Source of the DNA: Cyanobacteria bacterium QS_8_64_29
GTDB taxonomy: Bacteria; Cyanobacteriota; Cyanobacteriia; Cyanobacteriales; Rubidibacteraceae
Direction of reading: 5' to 3'
Assembly (NCBI GenBank): GCA_003022125.1
Contig: PXQH01000001.1
Coordinates: 62,001-126,000, forward strand
Length of the DNA: 64,000 nucleotides
Of this stretch, positions 26,009 to 63,414 are shown piece after piece. The first letter of the stretch is position 1. Every line of letters starts with the position of its first letter. The position numbers and the translations under genes are program-made. Under the pieces are notes generated by a model, which was not told the origin of the DNA, searched no databases, and was given only the letters and a program-made list of their open reading frames with translations.

Positions 26009-26395
26009 ATGGTAGCCGAGTCCAGCCAGGTTGCGACGGCAACGGCCGGTGCAGTCCCAGTCGAGCACCGCCCTTGGGGCAGCTTCAGCCTGTTGGAGCA
26101 AGGCCCCCGCTACAAAATCAAGCGCATCGAGGTCGAGCCCGGGCATCGCCTCAGCCTGCAGATGCACTACCACCGCAGCGAGCATTGGATCGTCGTTTCG
26201 GGAACGGCCAAGGTGGTCTGCGGCGATCGCGAGCTCATCCTAGGCAACAACGAATCGACCTACGTTCCGCAGGGGACCCACCATCGGCTGGAGAATCCCG
26301 GTGCCATCAAGCTCGTTTTGATCGAGGTTCAAAATGGCGAGTACGTGGGCGAAGATGACATCGTGCGCTATCAGGATGACTACGCGCGCGATTGA
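26009..26395 (+). CDS. Cupin, mannose-6-phosphate isomerase type II-like
   Basis: 128-residue single cupin of the type that forms the C-terminal half of bifunctional mannose-1-phosphate guanylyltransferase/mannose-6-phosphate isomerases. Seen: EHRPWGSFSLLEQGPRYKIKRIEV, PGHRLSLQMHYHRSEHWIVVSG with the metal-binding His residues, STYVPQGTHHRLENPG and LIEVQNGEYVGEDDIVR. Stand-alone copies are frequent in cyanobacteria and interconvert mannose-6-phosphate and fructose-6-phosphate, feeding GDP-mannose synthesis; the isomerase activity here is inferred. ATG at 26009 with GGAG about ten bases upstream. Confidence 0.9.
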   Translation: MVAESSQVATATAGAVPVEHRPWGSFSLLEQGPRYKIKRIEVEPGHRLSLQMHYHRSEHWIVVSGTAKVVCGDRELILGNNESTYVPQGTHHRLENPGAIKLVLIEVQNGEYVGEDDIVRYQDDYARD

Positions 26396-56979: not shown

Positions 56980-58944
56980 CTACCCTAAATAGAGCAGCAG
57001 GTTGAGCCCCGGAATCGTGCGCGATAGGGTCCAGATCAACAACCCGATGTAGAGGCTGCCCAGCCCCCACTGGTACCAGACCAGGGCGCTTACGGTGCCG
57101 GGCAAGTGCTGATCGCGCAGCCGAATGTCGTTGAAGCCCAGCTTGAGCAGGTTGTTAAAGCTGAAATCGTAGTAGTTGAGCCATCCCCAGCGGCGATCAC
57201 AGCGGATGGGGGTAAAGTGATCGCGGTAGAAATAAAACTTGGGGATGATAGGCAGGCGGACGACGAGCAGGCGCAACTGGCGCGCGCTGCCGTCTTCCAC
57301 TAAGTAGGTGACATCGAGCATGTCGTGGTAGCGTCCCTGGCGGTACAGGCGCGCCACCAGCAACAGCGGCACGGGCAGTACCATGGCGCCCAAACAGGCC
57401 AGGGTCAGCACCGGCTGCTCGGCCGAGCGCACCAGCGCCAGCAGACTGAGCGCGCTGACCAGGCCGAAGCTGAGAGCCATGCAAGCGGTTTCTTGCCGAC
57501 CCGGCAGAATGGCGGCCGGGCGCCGCCGCCGCCACCGGTCCAGGAACCAAAACAGGACCGCAAAGTAAGCGGCGCCCAAAATGCCGACACTGACCACTAG
57601 CCCCACGTTCGTACCGTACTGGCTCAACAGCAGCAGCACGCTCAATCCCAACCATTGCACGGCTTCCCGCACGCGCTTCCAGTGCCAGCGTTGCGCCAGT
57701 GGCGTCCCAGCCCAACGCTCGGCGATTTGCGCCAACCGCAACCGTTGCGTTTGATACTCCAGCCAGTTGGCATCCTGGACTTGCTCTAGGCTGCGAAAGT
57801 TGAACACTAGGTTGCGCAGGACGCTTTCGTTGCCCTGCAGCGTCGGAACCGAAATGGCCCGGCCGATGGCGCCCGGATCGCCTAAAATCCGCGTTTTGTT
57901 GGCATCGAAGGCGAGGTTGGCAACGTTGAGATAAGTCCCGCGCGCAAAAACGGCATTGCTGAAATCGAGCTGGGCGAACAGGCTAACGCCCTGCAACGCA
58001 ACAGGGGCATTGAAGCGGGCACCGCGGAAGGTGACCGGCCCCTCGAAGGTAGCTTCGGCCAGCGTGACTTCATCCAGGAAGCGGCCCTTGGCAAATAGGA
58101 CCCGGTCCTGCCAGTTGGTCTGCGCTAGGTCGGCTTGGCCGTACCAGCGGACCTGCGTCCAGTCGGCAACGCCGCCAAAGTCGGCGTGCGCCATGCTAGC
58201 GCCTTGGTGAAAGAAGGCTTGGGCAAAATGCGCGTTGCCCTGAAAGTCAGCCCGGCGAAACGTCGCTGAGGCAAAGAAGGTGCTGTGGGCGAAGGTGGCA
58301 GTTTCGCCGAAGCTAGCGCGGCTGAAGTCTAGCTCGCCGCCAAAGTGCGCCCGCGACCAGTTGACCGTACCGGCAAATGCCGTTCCTAGGGCGCGTATTG
58401 GCTGCAGGAACAGCATGCCGTTGCCCTCAACCGGGCCTTGCAGCTCTGCCTCGCTCAGATCGAGCGGGCCGCGTAGCAAGGCAACGCTGCGCTCCTGGCT
58501 GGCTTGGGGAGCAGCTTCCGCTGTGCCCTCCTCGGCGGCGCGCAGGCGCTCCAATTTAGCTCGCTCGGCCTCGGTGAGTGCGAGCGTCTCGGCATCCGGG
58601 GCTATCCCCAGCTTGGCTAAGTTGAGCTGTCCCTGAATGACCGATTGGCGCAAATCGAGCCCGAGCGGCACCGGCGAGCGCGCTAGCGCCTGTTGCAGGA
58701 TGCGGTAAAAGCGATCGCGGAATTCGGCGTTCTCGGCGCGCAGGTCAATGGCAAAGGCTTGCAAGTCGATGGTGGCGCTGCCGTTGGGGCTGGCGGGGGC
58801 TGCTGCCCGCGCCTGCAGCGCCTCCAGCGTGAGCGGCTCGCGCTCAGGGGCGGCGTGCAGCGGCGCTGGCAACACCAGCAGCGCCACTAGCAGCACCGCC
58901 AATCCGCCAGCCAGGCTTCGGGCCAGCAAGCCGGGTCGCGTCAC
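56980..58944 (-). CDS. Pentapeptide-repeat membrane protein
   Basis: 654 residues from the GTG at 58944, whose GTGA overlaps the stop of the upstream oxidoreductase gene; an upstream in-frame ATG would lie inside that gene. Seen: an export signal (AGGLAVLLVALLVLPAPLHAA); an N-terminal helical part; from about residue 190 to 370 repeated A(D/N)F or ATF units (HFGGELDFSRASFGETATFA, FFASATFRRADFQGNAHFA) that should form a right-handed quadrilateral beta-helix; then, after a soluble stretch, about four membrane segments (residues about 455-570) and a C-terminal region ending in another hydrophobic segment. Role unknown. Confidence 0.82.
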   Translation of the reverse strand: MTRPGLLARSLAGGLAVLLVALLVLPAPLHAAPEREPLTLEALQARAAAPASPNGSATIDLQAFAIDLRAENAEFRDRFYRILQQALARSPVPLGLDLRQSVIQGQLNLAKLGIAPDAETLALTEAERAKLERLRAAEEGTAEAAPQASQERSVALLRGPLDLSEAELQGPVEGNGMLFLQPIRALGTAFAGTVNWSRAHFGGELDFSRASFGETATFAHSTFFASATFRRADFQGNAHFAQAFFHQGASMAHADFGGVADWTQVRWYGQADLAQTNWQDRVLFAKGRFLDEVTLAEATFEGPVTFRGARFNAPVALQGVSLFAQLDFSNAVFARGTYLNVANLAFDANKTRILGDPGAIGRAISVPTLQGNESVLRNLVFNFRSLEQVQDANWLEYQTQRLRLAQIAERWAGTPLAQRWHWKRVREAVQWLGLSVLLLLSQYGTNVGLVVSVGILGAAYFAVLFWFLDRWRRRRPAAILPGRQETACMALSFGLVSALSLLALVRSAEQPVLTLACLGAMVLPVPLLLVARLYRQGRYHDMLDVTYLVEDGSARQLRLLVVRLPIIPKFYFYRDHFTPIRCDRRWGWLNYYDFSFNNLLKLGFNDIRLRDQHLPGTVSALVWYQWGLGSLYIGLLIWTLSRTIPGLNLLLYLG

Positions 58945-59942
58945 GCCACGGTCAGCGCAACCTTGCCGGTCATGGCCCCTTGCTCTAGCAACTGGTGGGC
59001 AGCTTGCACTTGCGAGAGCGGATAGGTTTGGGCCAGCCGAATGCGCAGGCGGCCGCGATCGATCCAGTCGGCACACTGCTGCAGGATTTGGGCTTGGGCG
59101 CGCTGCGCCTCGATCGGGCCTTGCAACTGCGGCGTGAGCATGAGCTCAAAGCCCACGCGCAGGTTGCGCGAGCGCGCTTCCTTCCAATCCGTTTCGGCGC
59201 CTGCCTGCAGGAGCGTAACGGCGTTGCCGTAGGGCCGCACGGCCCCCAAGGAAGGCGACAGGACCGAAGGGCCTACCGTATCGAAAGCCAGATCGACGCC
59301 TTGACCGGCCGTCCAATCGCGCGCCGCTTGGACGAAGTCTTCCTGTTGGTAAAAAATGACCCAATCGGCACCTAGCTGGCGGACGAAGGTCGCTTTTTCT
59401 TCCGTGCTGACCGTCGTTGCCACGCTGGCCCCTTGCAGCTTGGCCAGCTGGATGGCCACGTGGCCGACGCCGCCGGCGCCCGCATGGACGAGCGCGCTCT
59501 GACCGGCTTGCAGTTGGCCGCGATCGTAGAGTCCTTCCCAGGCGGTAATCAGCACCAGCGGGGCTGCCGCGGCTTGGGCAAATGAAAGCGATTGCGGCTT
59601 GCGCGCCACAAAGCGCTCGTCGACCACGGCCAGCTCGGCATAGTTGCCCGTGCCCGGCTTGCCTAAGCCGCCCTGGCAAAAATACACCGCATCGCCCGGC
59701 TGGAAGCTCTCGACGGCCGAGCCGACTGCCTCCACTGTGCCGGCCCCATCGCAGCCCAAAATGGCCGGCAAGGCGTCGGGGTAGAAAACGCCGCGCTGGC
59801 GCAGCTTGGTATCGACCGGATTGACGCCGGCAGCCTGCAGCCGAACGCGCAGCTCGGTAGGGGCCTTAATTTGGGGATCCGGCACCTGCCGTTCTTCCAG
59901 AACTTCAGGATTGCCCGGTGCCGTCATGACCGCTGCTCGCAT
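58941..59942 (-). CDS. Quinone oxidoreductase-like zinc-independent alcohol dehydrogenase (MDR family)
   Basis: 333 residues from ATG 59942; a frame upstream to 59984 adds fourteen unrelated residues. Seen: RVRLQAAGVNPVDTKLRQRG, PAILGCDGAGTVEAVGSAV, GDAVYFCQGGLG, the NADPH-binding SALVHAGAGGVGHVAIQLAKLQGA, and C-terminal QVQAAHQLLEQGAMTGKVALTV. The zinc-binding cysteines of classical alcohol dehydrogenases are absent, so it belongs to the quinone oxidoreductase/zeta-crystallin type. Translationally coupled to the pentapeptide-repeat gene by GTGA. Confidence 0.9.
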   Translation of the reverse strand: MRAAVMTAPGNPEVLEERQVPDPQIKAPTELRVRLQAAGVNPVDTKLRQRGVFYPDALPAILGCDGAGTVEAVGSAVESFQPGDAVYFCQGGLGKPGTGNYAELAVVDERFVARKPQSLSFAQAAAAPLVLITAWEGLYDRGQLQAGQSALVHAGAGGVGHVAIQLAKLQGASVATTVSTEEKATFVRQLGADWVIFYQQEDFVQAARDWTAGQGVDLAFDTVGPSVLSPSLGAVRPYGNAVTLLQAGAETDWKEARSRNLRVGFELMLTPQLQGPIEAQRAQAQILQQCADWIDRGRLRIRLAQTYPLSQVQAAHQLLEQGAMTGKVALTVA

Positions 59943-59998
59943 GGAAGCGCTCGCGCCGAACTCAGCCTCGATCAATGGTCTCACCCCAGCCGGGGCGT

Positions 59999-60616
59999 TT
60001 AGAAGTCATCTAGGAGTTGGCCGAAGTGCGCCACCAGGGTATCGGCATCGGCCTGTTGGCCCGATGGCTCCGCCGCCTGTCGAGCGGGTGCCTCGCCGGA
60101 GTCGGGCGGTTCGGCCGCCTCGGAGTGAGCGGGTTGCGATCGCGACCCCGCCCAGGATTGCTCTAGCTGGGCCAGCTTTTGCTGGATCCGCTCGAACTGC
60201 TGCTCGGTGCGCGCTTCCAAGCGCTCGAGCCGCTGTGCTAGGGCCTGCGATCCGGTCGCTTGCTGCTCCTGCTGCGATCGCTCGCGCTCGAGCTGCTCCT
60301 GCAAGCCGGCGATCCGCGCCTCCAGCTCGGTTTTGGTTCGCTCGAGCTGCTCGCTCATCCCGGATTCGCTCGTCCCCGAGCGGGATTCCTCCGCCTGGGC
60401 TCGGGCGGCGAGCACCTGCTGGATCTCGCTGCGCTGCTGCTGGCTGTCGGCAGACTCCGATTCGGCTGGGTCCAGAAAGGCGTTGAGGGCTTGCTTGCAA
60501 AGCGCGCTGAAACTGCCATCTTTGCGCGCCGCTAGCGCCTGCTCGACGCGCTGCAGCAAGCGCCGATCAGCTTGGTGGTCCGAGAACGCAACGCTCTTGT
60601 TCGCCTTTTTGGCCAT
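59999..60616 (-). CDS. Ribbon-helix-helix/coiled-coil protein, possible ParR-like partner
   Basis: 205 residues from ATG 60616. Seen: a basic N-terminus MAKKANKSVAFSDHQADRRL, then LLQRVEQALAARKDGSFSALCKQALNAFL, which resembles a ribbon-helix-helix DNA-binding domain (residues about 8-48); a long coiled coil rich in Glu, Gln and Arg (about 65-150); and an acidic C-terminal tail ending in AHFGQLLDDF. Partners of actin-like ParM proteins (ParR) have such an RHH N-terminus and a C-terminal tail that touches the filament. It begins 19 bp after the ParM-like gene, supporting a partnership. No experimental evidence; assignment is inference. Confidence 0.6.
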   Translation of the reverse strand: MAKKANKSVAFSDHQADRRLLQRVEQALAARKDGSFSALCKQALNAFLDPAESESADSQQQRSEIQQVLAARAQAEESRSGTSESGMSEQLERTKTELEARIAGLQEQLERERSQQEQQATGSQALAQRLERLEARTEQQFERIQQKLAQLEQSWAGSRSQPAHSEAAEPPDSGEAPARQAAEPSGQQADADTLVAHFGQLLDDF

Positions 60617-60635
60617 GGCACTTGCCCCCTTGCCG

Positions 60636-61685
60636 TCAATGCCGGGCGGCTTCCTGCCGCACTTCCCCGTAGATGTGCTGGCCCAGCGCATTGGCCTCGC
60701 ACGAGGGTTTGGCCAGGTGGCCCCCTAGCTGGGCTTGGGCCAGCAGCTGCTGGAGCTCTTCCCAGAAAAACTCGCCACCGCCGCCCGTTACGACCACATC
60801 GGTCGTTCGCTCGGGGAGCCAGGCAATCAGGCGATCGCGCAGCTCGCGGGCAAAGCTTTTGCGCAAGCTAGGCAGAATCTCGTCCAGGTTGGTGGGCTGG
60901 ATTGCGCCCTGCGGCCGATAGAACCGCTCGCCTTCCGGCCGGTTGACGGCCCGGATCAAATGGAGCGACTGGCTGTCCGCGCCCTGGATTTGGGCGGCCA
61001 CTTGCTCGTAAAACTGACTCATGGCAAAGGGTTCGCTCTGGGAGATCCCTCGCGCAAACCGGAAGCGATCGGCCAGCAGCAGATCGGTGGTTTGGTGGCC
61101 GATGTCGGCAATGGCCACCGAGGCATCGCGCAGGCGGTTCTCGCCGCTGTCGTGCTGTAGGGCTTCCATCCAGAGCAGGCTGCCGTACCCTTCCGGGATG
61201 GACTAAACCTGCTTGATGTCGACCGCAATTTCCTCGCCCCGATAGCTCATGACATGCGGCGACTGCAGCAGCCCCTGGACCTCGGCTTTATCGCGCTCGA
61301 ATTGCTCTTGGGATTGGTAAGGCAGCCCCAGCACGACCGAAACCTCGCCGCTGAGGCCAAAGTAGCCTATGCTGGCAAACACCTTGACCAGGGCCCCCTC
61401 GAGTTTGGAGCTACCCAGTCCCAGATCGGCCCCAAAATCGGCGGCAAGCTGGCCCAAGGCATAACCGCGGCCCTGATACTCGAGCCACATGTCCAGCAGC
61501 GGATCGGCCAGGCGCGCGTCAAAAACGCCCCGCCGGACTTGTTCGGTGCTGAGCTGGGCAACGTTGGCCGGGATTAGAACGACGCTATTCGGATCGCGGC
61601 TGACGCACGCTTTGGTTGAGGTCCGCCCCAAATCGACGCTCAGGACGGTCGGGTTGCTCGCGGCGCGGCTTCGTTCGGCAGCCAT
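60636..61685 (-). pseudogene. ParM/StbA-like actin ATPase with an in-frame amber codon
   Basis: A 349-codon actin-fold gene. Seen: phosphate-1 motif LSVDLGRTSTKACV near the N-terminus, LGLPYQSQEQFERDK, phosphate-2 motif VAIADIGHQTTDLLL and adenosine motif VVVTGGGGEFFWEEL, as in plasmid-segregation actin ParM. Codon 161, at 61203-61205 between IAVDIKQV and SIPEGYGSLLW, is TAG; both sides remain in the same frame, so a single base change would restore the protein. The stop falls between the two phosphate motifs, so the fragments alone could not bind ATP. TAG is a common stop elsewhere in the window, so recoding is unlikely. Reads as a recent pseudogene, a sequencing error or a readthrough site. 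Confidence 0.8.
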
Positions 61686-61743: not shown

Positions 61744-62871
61744 TCACCCCCTAACTGCAAGCTGGAAGCGGTTCCGAACGGCTTGCAAGATCCGCTCGGC
61801 AGCGCGGCCGTCGCCGAAGGGATTGCTAGCAGCTGCCATGGCGCGGTAGCTGGCCGCATCGCTCAGCAATTCGCTGGCTGCAGCCAGGATGCGATCGGGG
61901 TCGACGCCTACCAAACGGGCCGTTCCGGCCGCGATCGCCTCGCTGCGTTCGGTGGTCTCGCGCAGGACCAACACGGGCTTGCCCAAACTGGGGGCTTCCT
62001 CCTGCAGGCCGCCCGAATCGGTCAGCAACAAGTGGCAGCGCTGGATGGCGCCCACTAACTGCGGATAGCTCAGCGGTGCCGTCAAAAAGGCGCGCGGGTG
62101 GTCGCCCAACTGCTTGCGCATGGAATCGCCCACCGCTGGGTTGGGATGGAGCGGCAGCAGCAGCGCCGTATCGGGAAAGCGATCCAGAATGCGGCGCAGC
62201 CCGGCAGCAATGCCTTGCAGCGGCGCCCCCCAACTCTCGCGTCGGTGCACGGTAACCAGCAGCACCCGATAGTCTTGCCAAGCCATGCCCTCAACCGGGC
62301 AATCTGGATGGCGCTCGGCCACGCTCAGCAGCGCATCGATGACGGTGTTGCCAGTGTGATGGATCTCGCCGCTGACGCCGGAGCGCTCGAGGTTGGCAAC
62401 GGCCGAGCGCGTGGGGGCAAAGTGCAGCTCGGCCAGCTGCGAGATCAGGCGCCGGTTGGCCTCTTCCGGATAGGGATTGGCCAAGTCGTGAGAGCGCAGC
62501 CCGGCCTCCACGTGACCGACGGGGACCTTTTGATAGAACGCGCCCAGGGCAGCCGCAAAGGCAGTCGTGGTATCGCCCTGGACCAGCACCATTTCGGGCT
62601 GCAGCTGCTGGAACAGCTCCGCAAGGCCCTCCAAGCTGCGGCAAGTCAGCTCGGTGAGCGTGTGGCGCTCGCGCACGATCTGCAAGTCCCGGTCGACGCG
62701 GAGGTCGAACAGCTGCATGACCCGATCGACCATCTCGCGGTGCTGGCCGGTTAGGATGACTTGAACCTCAACGGCCTCGGCCTTGCGGAGCTGGCGGATG
62801 ACCGGCGCTAGCTTGATTGCTTCCGGCCGCGTGCCCAGTGCAATGGCAACCGACGCCGCGGGCGCCGTCAT
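61744..62871 (-). CDS. wecB: UDP-N-acetylglucosamine 2-epimerase (non-hydrolysing)
   Basis: Converts UDP-GlcNAc to UDP-ManNAc for surface polysaccharides. 375 residues. Seen: ALGTRPEAIKLAPVIRQL at the N-terminus, ILTGQHREMVDRVMQLF, MVLVQGDTTTAFAAALGAFYQ, VGHVEAGLRSHDLANPYPEEANRRL with the family signature, TVHRRESWGAPLQGIA, LLLTDSGGLQEEAPSLGKPVLVLRETTERSEA and the C-terminal nucleotide loop. Complete. Same strand as the ParM-like gene, which starts 58 bp downstream. Confidence 0.95.
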   Translation of the reverse strand: MTAPAASVAIALGTRPEAIKLAPVIRQLRKAEAVEVQVILTGQHREMVDRVMQLFDLRVDRDLQIVRERHTLTELTCRSLEGLAELFQQLQPEMVLVQGDTTTAFAAALGAFYQKVPVGHVEAGLRSHDLANPYPEEANRRLISQLAELHFAPTRSAVANLERSGVSGEIHHTGNTVIDALLSVAERHPDCPVEGMAWQDYRVLLVTVHRRESWGAPLQGIAAGLRRILDRFPDTALLLPLHPNPAVGDSMRKQLGDHPRAFLTAPLSYPQLVGAIQRCHLLLTDSGGLQEEAPSLGKPVLVLRETTERSEAIAAGTARLVGVDPDRILAAASELLSDAASYRAMAAASNPFGDGRAAERILQAVRNRFQLAVRG

Positions 62872-63033: not shown

Positions 63034-63414
63034 TCAGGCTTCAAGCTGGAGATCGCAGGCCAACTGGCACGCGCCATACTGGCTTCGGGGCAGCACGGCG
63101 GCTTTGCCGTTGAGCCAGTGCAGCCACGGAATGCGTTGCAGGTGAATGCCTTTGAGCGTCAAAATGGCCGAGCTAAGTGCAATGGCAATAACGCTGCTCC
63201 CAATGAGGCTGCCGGCCACCATCAGGACCGCACTAGCCGGCACGAGCGCATGCAGCGTCATGGCCAGAAACAGGCCTACAGTTGCCGCAATGGCAACGAG
63301 CGGGAAGCCGGCGACGAGCAGGCAAACCAATAACGTAAAGTTCCAGAGCGCAAAGCTTTTGAGGGTTCCCCATAGCTGAACGGAGTCTTGTCGGAAATCC
63401 TGGGCCAGTGACAT
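63034..63414 (-). CDS. Small membrane protein of unknown function
   Basis: 126 residues. Seen: an amphipathic N-terminus (MSLAQDFRQDSVQLWGTLKS), then two or three membrane segments (about residues 22-88: FTLLVCLLVAGFPLVAIAAT, and VLMVAGSLIGSSVIAIALSS), and a soluble C-terminal tail with two cysteines. AGGAGG five bases before the ATG is a strong ribosome site, and a canonical terminator follows, so it is a well-expressed single-gene unit. I do not recognise a characterised family and propose no function. Confidence 0.75.
   Translation of the reverse strand: MSLAQDFRQDSVQLWGTLKSFALWNFTLLVCLLVAGFPLVAIAATVGLFLAMTLHALVPASAVLMVAGSLIGSSVIAIALSSAILTLKGIHLQRIPWLHWLNGKAAVLPRSQYGACQLACDLQLEA

Follow-up and report, generated by a model that had tools for sequence, protein, structure and literature searches.

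An interrupted fcmB gene beside its adaptor: a known kind of actin locus in an unexpected cyanobacterial host

Two adjoining genes on the minus strand of positions 59999-61685 of the window, i.e., the whole 64-kb stretch of DNA analysed here, belong to a known kind of system found in an unexpected host: a cyanobacterial cell-shape actin and its adaptor, in which the actin gene is interrupted and possibly decaying. The identity of the gene pair is in itself ordinary. Very probably, the pair is a chromosomal fcmB-fcmC (corM-corR) locus that a lineage within its host family gained by horizontal transfer; general knowledge and the genome sizes lead us to take this family for one of unicellular halophiles. 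By homology, the intact ancestral pair would have promoted the rod shape. The same system is presumably the one called CorM/CorR in Anabaena, and the name CorM is supported by the title of PDB entry 9rmi.

FcmB of Nostoc punctiforme is a chromosomal actin of ParM descent whose membrane-bound filaments run around the cell, and it depends on FcmC for its localisation at the membrane; deletion of either fcmB or fcmC leads to the loss of the rod shape and leaves the nucleoid distribution visibly unchanged (Nguyen et al., 2025; PMC12645912). The two proteins have been described as an actin system for cell morphology with its origin in plasmid partition genes, and they have been proposed as key to the shape plasticity of filamentous cyanobacteria (PMC12645912).

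Locus Organization and Genomic Context

The pair lies exactly where the original prediction placed it. The fcmB/corM actin-like gene runs on the minus strand from 61685 to 60636 (349 codons when an internal TAG is read through) and, after a spacer of 19 bp (60635-60617), it is directly followed on the same strand by the fcmC/corR-like adaptor gene (60616 to 59999), which encodes a protein of 205 aa. The upstream flank is a wecB-type UDP-N-acetylglucosamine 2-epimerase gene (61744-62871, minus strand; Pfam PF02350), while the downstream flank encodes a zinc-type quinone/alcohol dehydrogenase (58941-59984, minus strand; Pfam, with matches in family members), followed further downstream by a pentapeptide-repeat protein and ilvN (Pfam). 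The setting had been described as one of chromosomal envelope genes; it is indeed chromosomal, with wecB upstream, but the dehydrogenase, the pentapeptide-repeat protein and ilvN make it an envelope context only in part.

The Actin Gene and Its Internal Stop Codon

Read through its single stop, the product of the actin gene is, as judged from its sequence, clearly FcmB/CorM. It scores 582.5 bits against the NCBIfam model NF052678, "filament morphology actin-like protein FcmB" (cut-off 300), and 51 bits against the ParM model; it also matches Pfam ALP_N, and its sole real sequence match in a phmmer search of the PDB is 9rmi (CorM), over residues 8-345 (E = 1.4e-144). The earlier description as a ParM-like ATPase holds in so far as chance can by no means account for the homology to actin, but the frame consists of 160 + 188 codons and is not one open ATPase gene. 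Actin folds bind the nucleotide through motifs named phosphate-1, phosphate-2 and adenosine; in the read-through FcmB these are VDLGRTSTK (61611-61637), DIGHQTTD (61083-61106) and TGGGGEFF (60762-60788 with the following residue, TGGGGEFFW), all on the minus strand, the first ahead of the stop and the other two beyond it.

The stop is an in-frame TAG at 61205-61203 (minus strand, codon 161), which leaves the frame unshifted on either side, and a working FcmB requires an intact frame, so that the gene has been filed as an interrupted fcmB gene. In the alignment of relatives, codon 161 is Trp and codon 162 is Val in 87 of 88 sequences each, versus TAG and Ser in the window; the nearest relatives read GTT TGG GTT/GTG where the window reads GTT TAG TCC. 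The rest of the gene is well preserved: it has no frameshift and keeps 133 of the 142 positions that are shared by 90% or more of the relatives. This is the only in-frame stop in fcmB among about 88 relatives and also, in a codon-usage scan of the window, the only strong one in coding frames. A weaker candidate detected by the scan, a TGA at 26393 on the plus strand between fair coding stretches (0.49 before and 0.29 after), could simply separate two neighbouring genes. Reassignment of TAG was ruled out, since this codon is the ordinary terminator of 16 of the 39 long frames of the window. The cut falls near the end of the first actin domain, and since the phosphate-2 and adenosine motifs lie beyond it, the truncated product is not expected to function as an actin.

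A gene so well preserved elsewhere is as compatible with an assembly error or with a stop of very recent date as it is with decay, and on the assembled sequence we give a nonsense mutation and an assembly error each a little less than an even chance. If the TAG had arisen by error in the consensus or assembly of this genome, which derives from a metagenome, the gene would be intact in the organism. The clustering of three base differences in two adjacent codons of an otherwise well-kept gene speaks for such an error, as do isolated breaks of the fcmB frame in other metagenome-derived genomes; these other breaks, however, are one-base shifts and not substitutions to a stop, and there is no other convincing in-frame stop in the 64 kb. 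If the TAG were instead real, fcmB would be a recent pseudogene, and the pair, once transferred into a lineage with no need of it, would be in the course of being lost. This would agree with the co-occurrence of the stop and of the adjacent Val-to-Ser change at positions that are 99% conserved, with the uniqueness of the stop among the relatives, with the small size of the genome (2.2 Mb vs. 2.8-4.8 Mb in the family) and with the lack of the pair in the sister genomes, although fcmC has stayed intact and most conserved residues survive in the second half of fcmB. That the TAG is real and FcmB nevertheless functional in a unicellular cyanobacterium, whether by readthrough or in the form of two halves that are translated separately and divided near the actin-domain boundary, appears very improbable.

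The one-base shifts of the fcmB frame occur in four metagenome-derived genomes (L148 1736, L149 1224, L150 1920, L126 2376), at least one of them in an A-run, and are likely assembly errors; a second class of truly broken fcmB genes in metagenome-derived genomes was considered and rejected on this basis.

The Adaptor and the Conserved Adjacency of the Two Genes

The 205-residue neighbour of fcmB is a divergent FcmC at the sequence level. Its score against the NCBIfam model NF052682 (FcmC) is 73.1 bits (E = 3e-20), under the curated cut-off of 90, and this counts against the interpretation given here; since the same model is matched by all 24 other members of the 25-sequence adaptor alignment, the protein has been filed as a divergent FcmC homologue. 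When the first ORF of 100 residues or more after fcmB was inspected in 89 loci, it was FcmC-like in every one, with an LCK/FCK-type motif towards the N-terminus and an Asp/Glu-Phe end; a terminal motif of the DPLLxRLxxLLEDF type is found in 88 of them. The proposal, made from this single chromosomal pair, that an actin of the ParM type is coupled to a ParR-like adaptor proved right, the adjacency being strictly kept in these loci.

AlphaFold2 modelling of FcmC from the 25 sequences (mean pLDDT 78, pTM 0.34) predicts, within residues 1-50 (60467-60616, minus strand), a strand-helix-helix arrangement of the ribbon-helix-helix (RHH) type, namely a strand-like KSVAF and two helices (15-30 and 36-48) with FSALCK, which follows a conserved pattern. 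Long helices forming a coiled coil follow at residues 57-158 (60143-60448, minus strand), where residues 91-150 mostly have a pLDDT above 90, and then a disordered polar linker and a terminal helix predicted at 191-203. The conserved C-terminal helix, residues 191-205 (60002-60046, minus strand), ends in DDF, and the C-terminus, ADTLVAHFGQLLDDF, has the form of the DPLLxRLxxLLEDF-type motif of the neighbours of fcmB. By analogy with ParR, this helix is the probable actin-binding peptide.

Foldseek searches with the full-length model and with the 55-residue N-terminal domain matched no RHH structure, and profile searches of the same domain against PDB, Pfam and PHROGs returned nothing meaningful. 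The RHH strand pairs only in the dimer, and a fold search can miss such a domain, which could account for the lack of a match. At the strand positions directed towards the DNA in classical RHH proteins, FcmC is not consistently basic. On the whole, the order of the predicted elements fits an RHH monomer with an actin-binding tail, and the model makes an RHH fold plausible. Of the adaptor layout expected at the outset, the strand-helix-helix-type N-terminus and the long coiled coil have been retained, whereas the supposed acidic tail turns out to have a conserved helix motif at its end; likewise, the structure prediction recovers the order of the elements but no match to an RHH fold.

In the adaptor alignment (A1), FcmC proteins of the Nostoc, Microcoleus and Symploca types begin with an aromatic residue or Trp plus a Lys stretch (MFQWSKK, MALWAKNK). 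This start is missing from the FcmC of the subclade of the window, possibly reflecting a difference in membrane anchoring.

Distribution and Origin

FcmB scores above the cut-off in 166 of 391 genomes of the order. Neither fcmB nor fcmC was found in the other eight genomes of the host family, one of which is that of Euhalothece natronophila Z-M001 (100% plasmid match); all that one of the eight shows is a weak and distant match of the ParM-like kind. In the FcmB tree, the protein of the window groups with those of G217, a member of the Stanieria family, and G048/G185 (support 98/95), and this grouping with scattered families makes a horizontal gain of the fcmB-fcmC pair likely. Furthermore, one family (f14) has its members at two distinct places in the tree (p-AU 3e-14), a sign of transfer or hidden paralogy. 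Differential loss may account for the pattern instead of horizontal gain. If this uncultured host is unicellular, the presence of the gene would run counter to the reported distribution, in which FcmB is confined to filamentous cyanobacteria and absent from unicellular strains (PMC12645912), a distribution that weighs against the interpretation given here.

On the wecB side, the flank is native. The wecB product is 69-70% identical to those of family members G001/G003, and wecB and the genes at 63034 and 63708 occur in the same order in G003, with synteny reaching as far as about 64.8 kb (contig terms). A contaminated or chimeric contig, in which case the locus would be foreign to the genome, would explain why the pair is missing from all sister genomes, but it was rejected on the synteny that the 161-kb contig shares with G003; moreover, the GC content of the pair (64.7%) matches that of the window (64.2%), and the estimated contamination of the host genome (2.2 Mb, 69 contigs) is 0.06%. 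A foreign origin of this kind is hardly credible.

The tree grouping of a copy from a presumably unicellular halophilic family with that of a Stanieria-family member suggests that the module moves between lineages, and also that fcmBC is not strictly tied to filaments. If the copy is truly interrupted, it would offer a natural example of a module gained and then lost.

Two further observations concern the host and the order. The host genome contains two MreB genes above the family cut-off (G000 C41 16469-17446 and C33 26691-27665), as against no more than one in any of the eight other family genomes. In the genus g166 (genomes of 2.1-3.2 Mb), which may be unicellular, an fcmB gene scoring 500-520 bits is followed by an FcmC-like gene (L145 2229-3855, L146 1582-3214).

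Proposed Role

By homology to the described relative, an intact ancestral FcmB would have formed membrane-associated filaments around the cell, FcmC would have held these filaments at the membrane, and both would have promoted the rod shape. The C-terminal helix of FcmC may bind FcmB, while its N-terminal domain and coiled coil may dimerise and tether the complex. Horizontal gain would have come first and then, possibly, decay: with a real stop that is not read through, the actin would be inactive and FcmC an orphan on its way to loss.

The original prediction had envisaged a poorly described segregation system with the chromosome, a plasmid or a subcellular body as cargo. The family has in fact already been characterised as FcmB/FcmC (PMC12645912), and a CorM structure has been deposited (PDB 9rmi). 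A true type II partition system (ParM-ParR-parC) segregating the chromosome or an integrated plasmid is suggested by the ParM/actin ancestry, by the ParR-like layout of the adaptor and by the occurrence of members of the wider FcmB family on Nostocaceae plasmids; we nevertheless regard it as most unlikely. The assignment to FcmB is far above that to ParM (582 vs. 51 bits), and the DNA-facing strand positions of the adaptor are, as noted above, not consistently basic. Instead of being carried on a segregated replicon, usually a plasmid, the pair lies on a chromosomal contig with native synteny on the wecB side. The iterated parC-like repeats that had been proposed as a check were not found around the two genes, where only weak repeats occur, mostly within the region coding for the coiled coil of FcmC. 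Finally, the characterised relative works at the membrane, where it influences cell shape without visible effect on nucleoid distribution, which makes a chromosome or plasmid cargo unlikely.

Comparison with Known Systems

In the ParM-ParR-parC plasmid partition systems (R1 and pB171 type), a protein with an actin fold is encoded upstream of an adaptor with an RHH N-terminus and an actin-binding C-terminal helix. The pair of the window shares the actin fold and the downstream adaptor, and may also share the RHH-type N-terminus and the actin-binding helix, but differs in its chromosomal location, in its low score against the ParM model and in that no iterated centromere was found.

The closest correspondence in organization is with FcmB/FcmC of Nostoc punctiforme (PMC12645912; NF052678, NF052682), with which the locus shares gene order, orientation, chromosomal location and the succession of a ParM-derived actin and a coiled-coil adaptor. 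It differs in the internal TAG of fcmB, in the divergent FcmC below the cut-off and in the unicellular habit assumed for the host family. With CorM (PDB 9rmi), the phmmer alignment covers window residues 8-345 (E = 1.4e-144), and the Trp that precedes VMPEGYG in CorM is the stop in the window.

The plasmid-borne FcmB-like proteins of Nostocaceae (L138, L139, L140) are 50-56% identical to the window protein in the actin domain but, in those inspected, no FcmC was found alongside. In these genes (L138 3000-4526, L139 3018-4547, L140 2646-4547) an open frame of about 140-265 codons upstream of the annotated start encodes a hydrophobic segment and a coiled coil, and these proteins are possibly self-anchored, adaptor-free actins.
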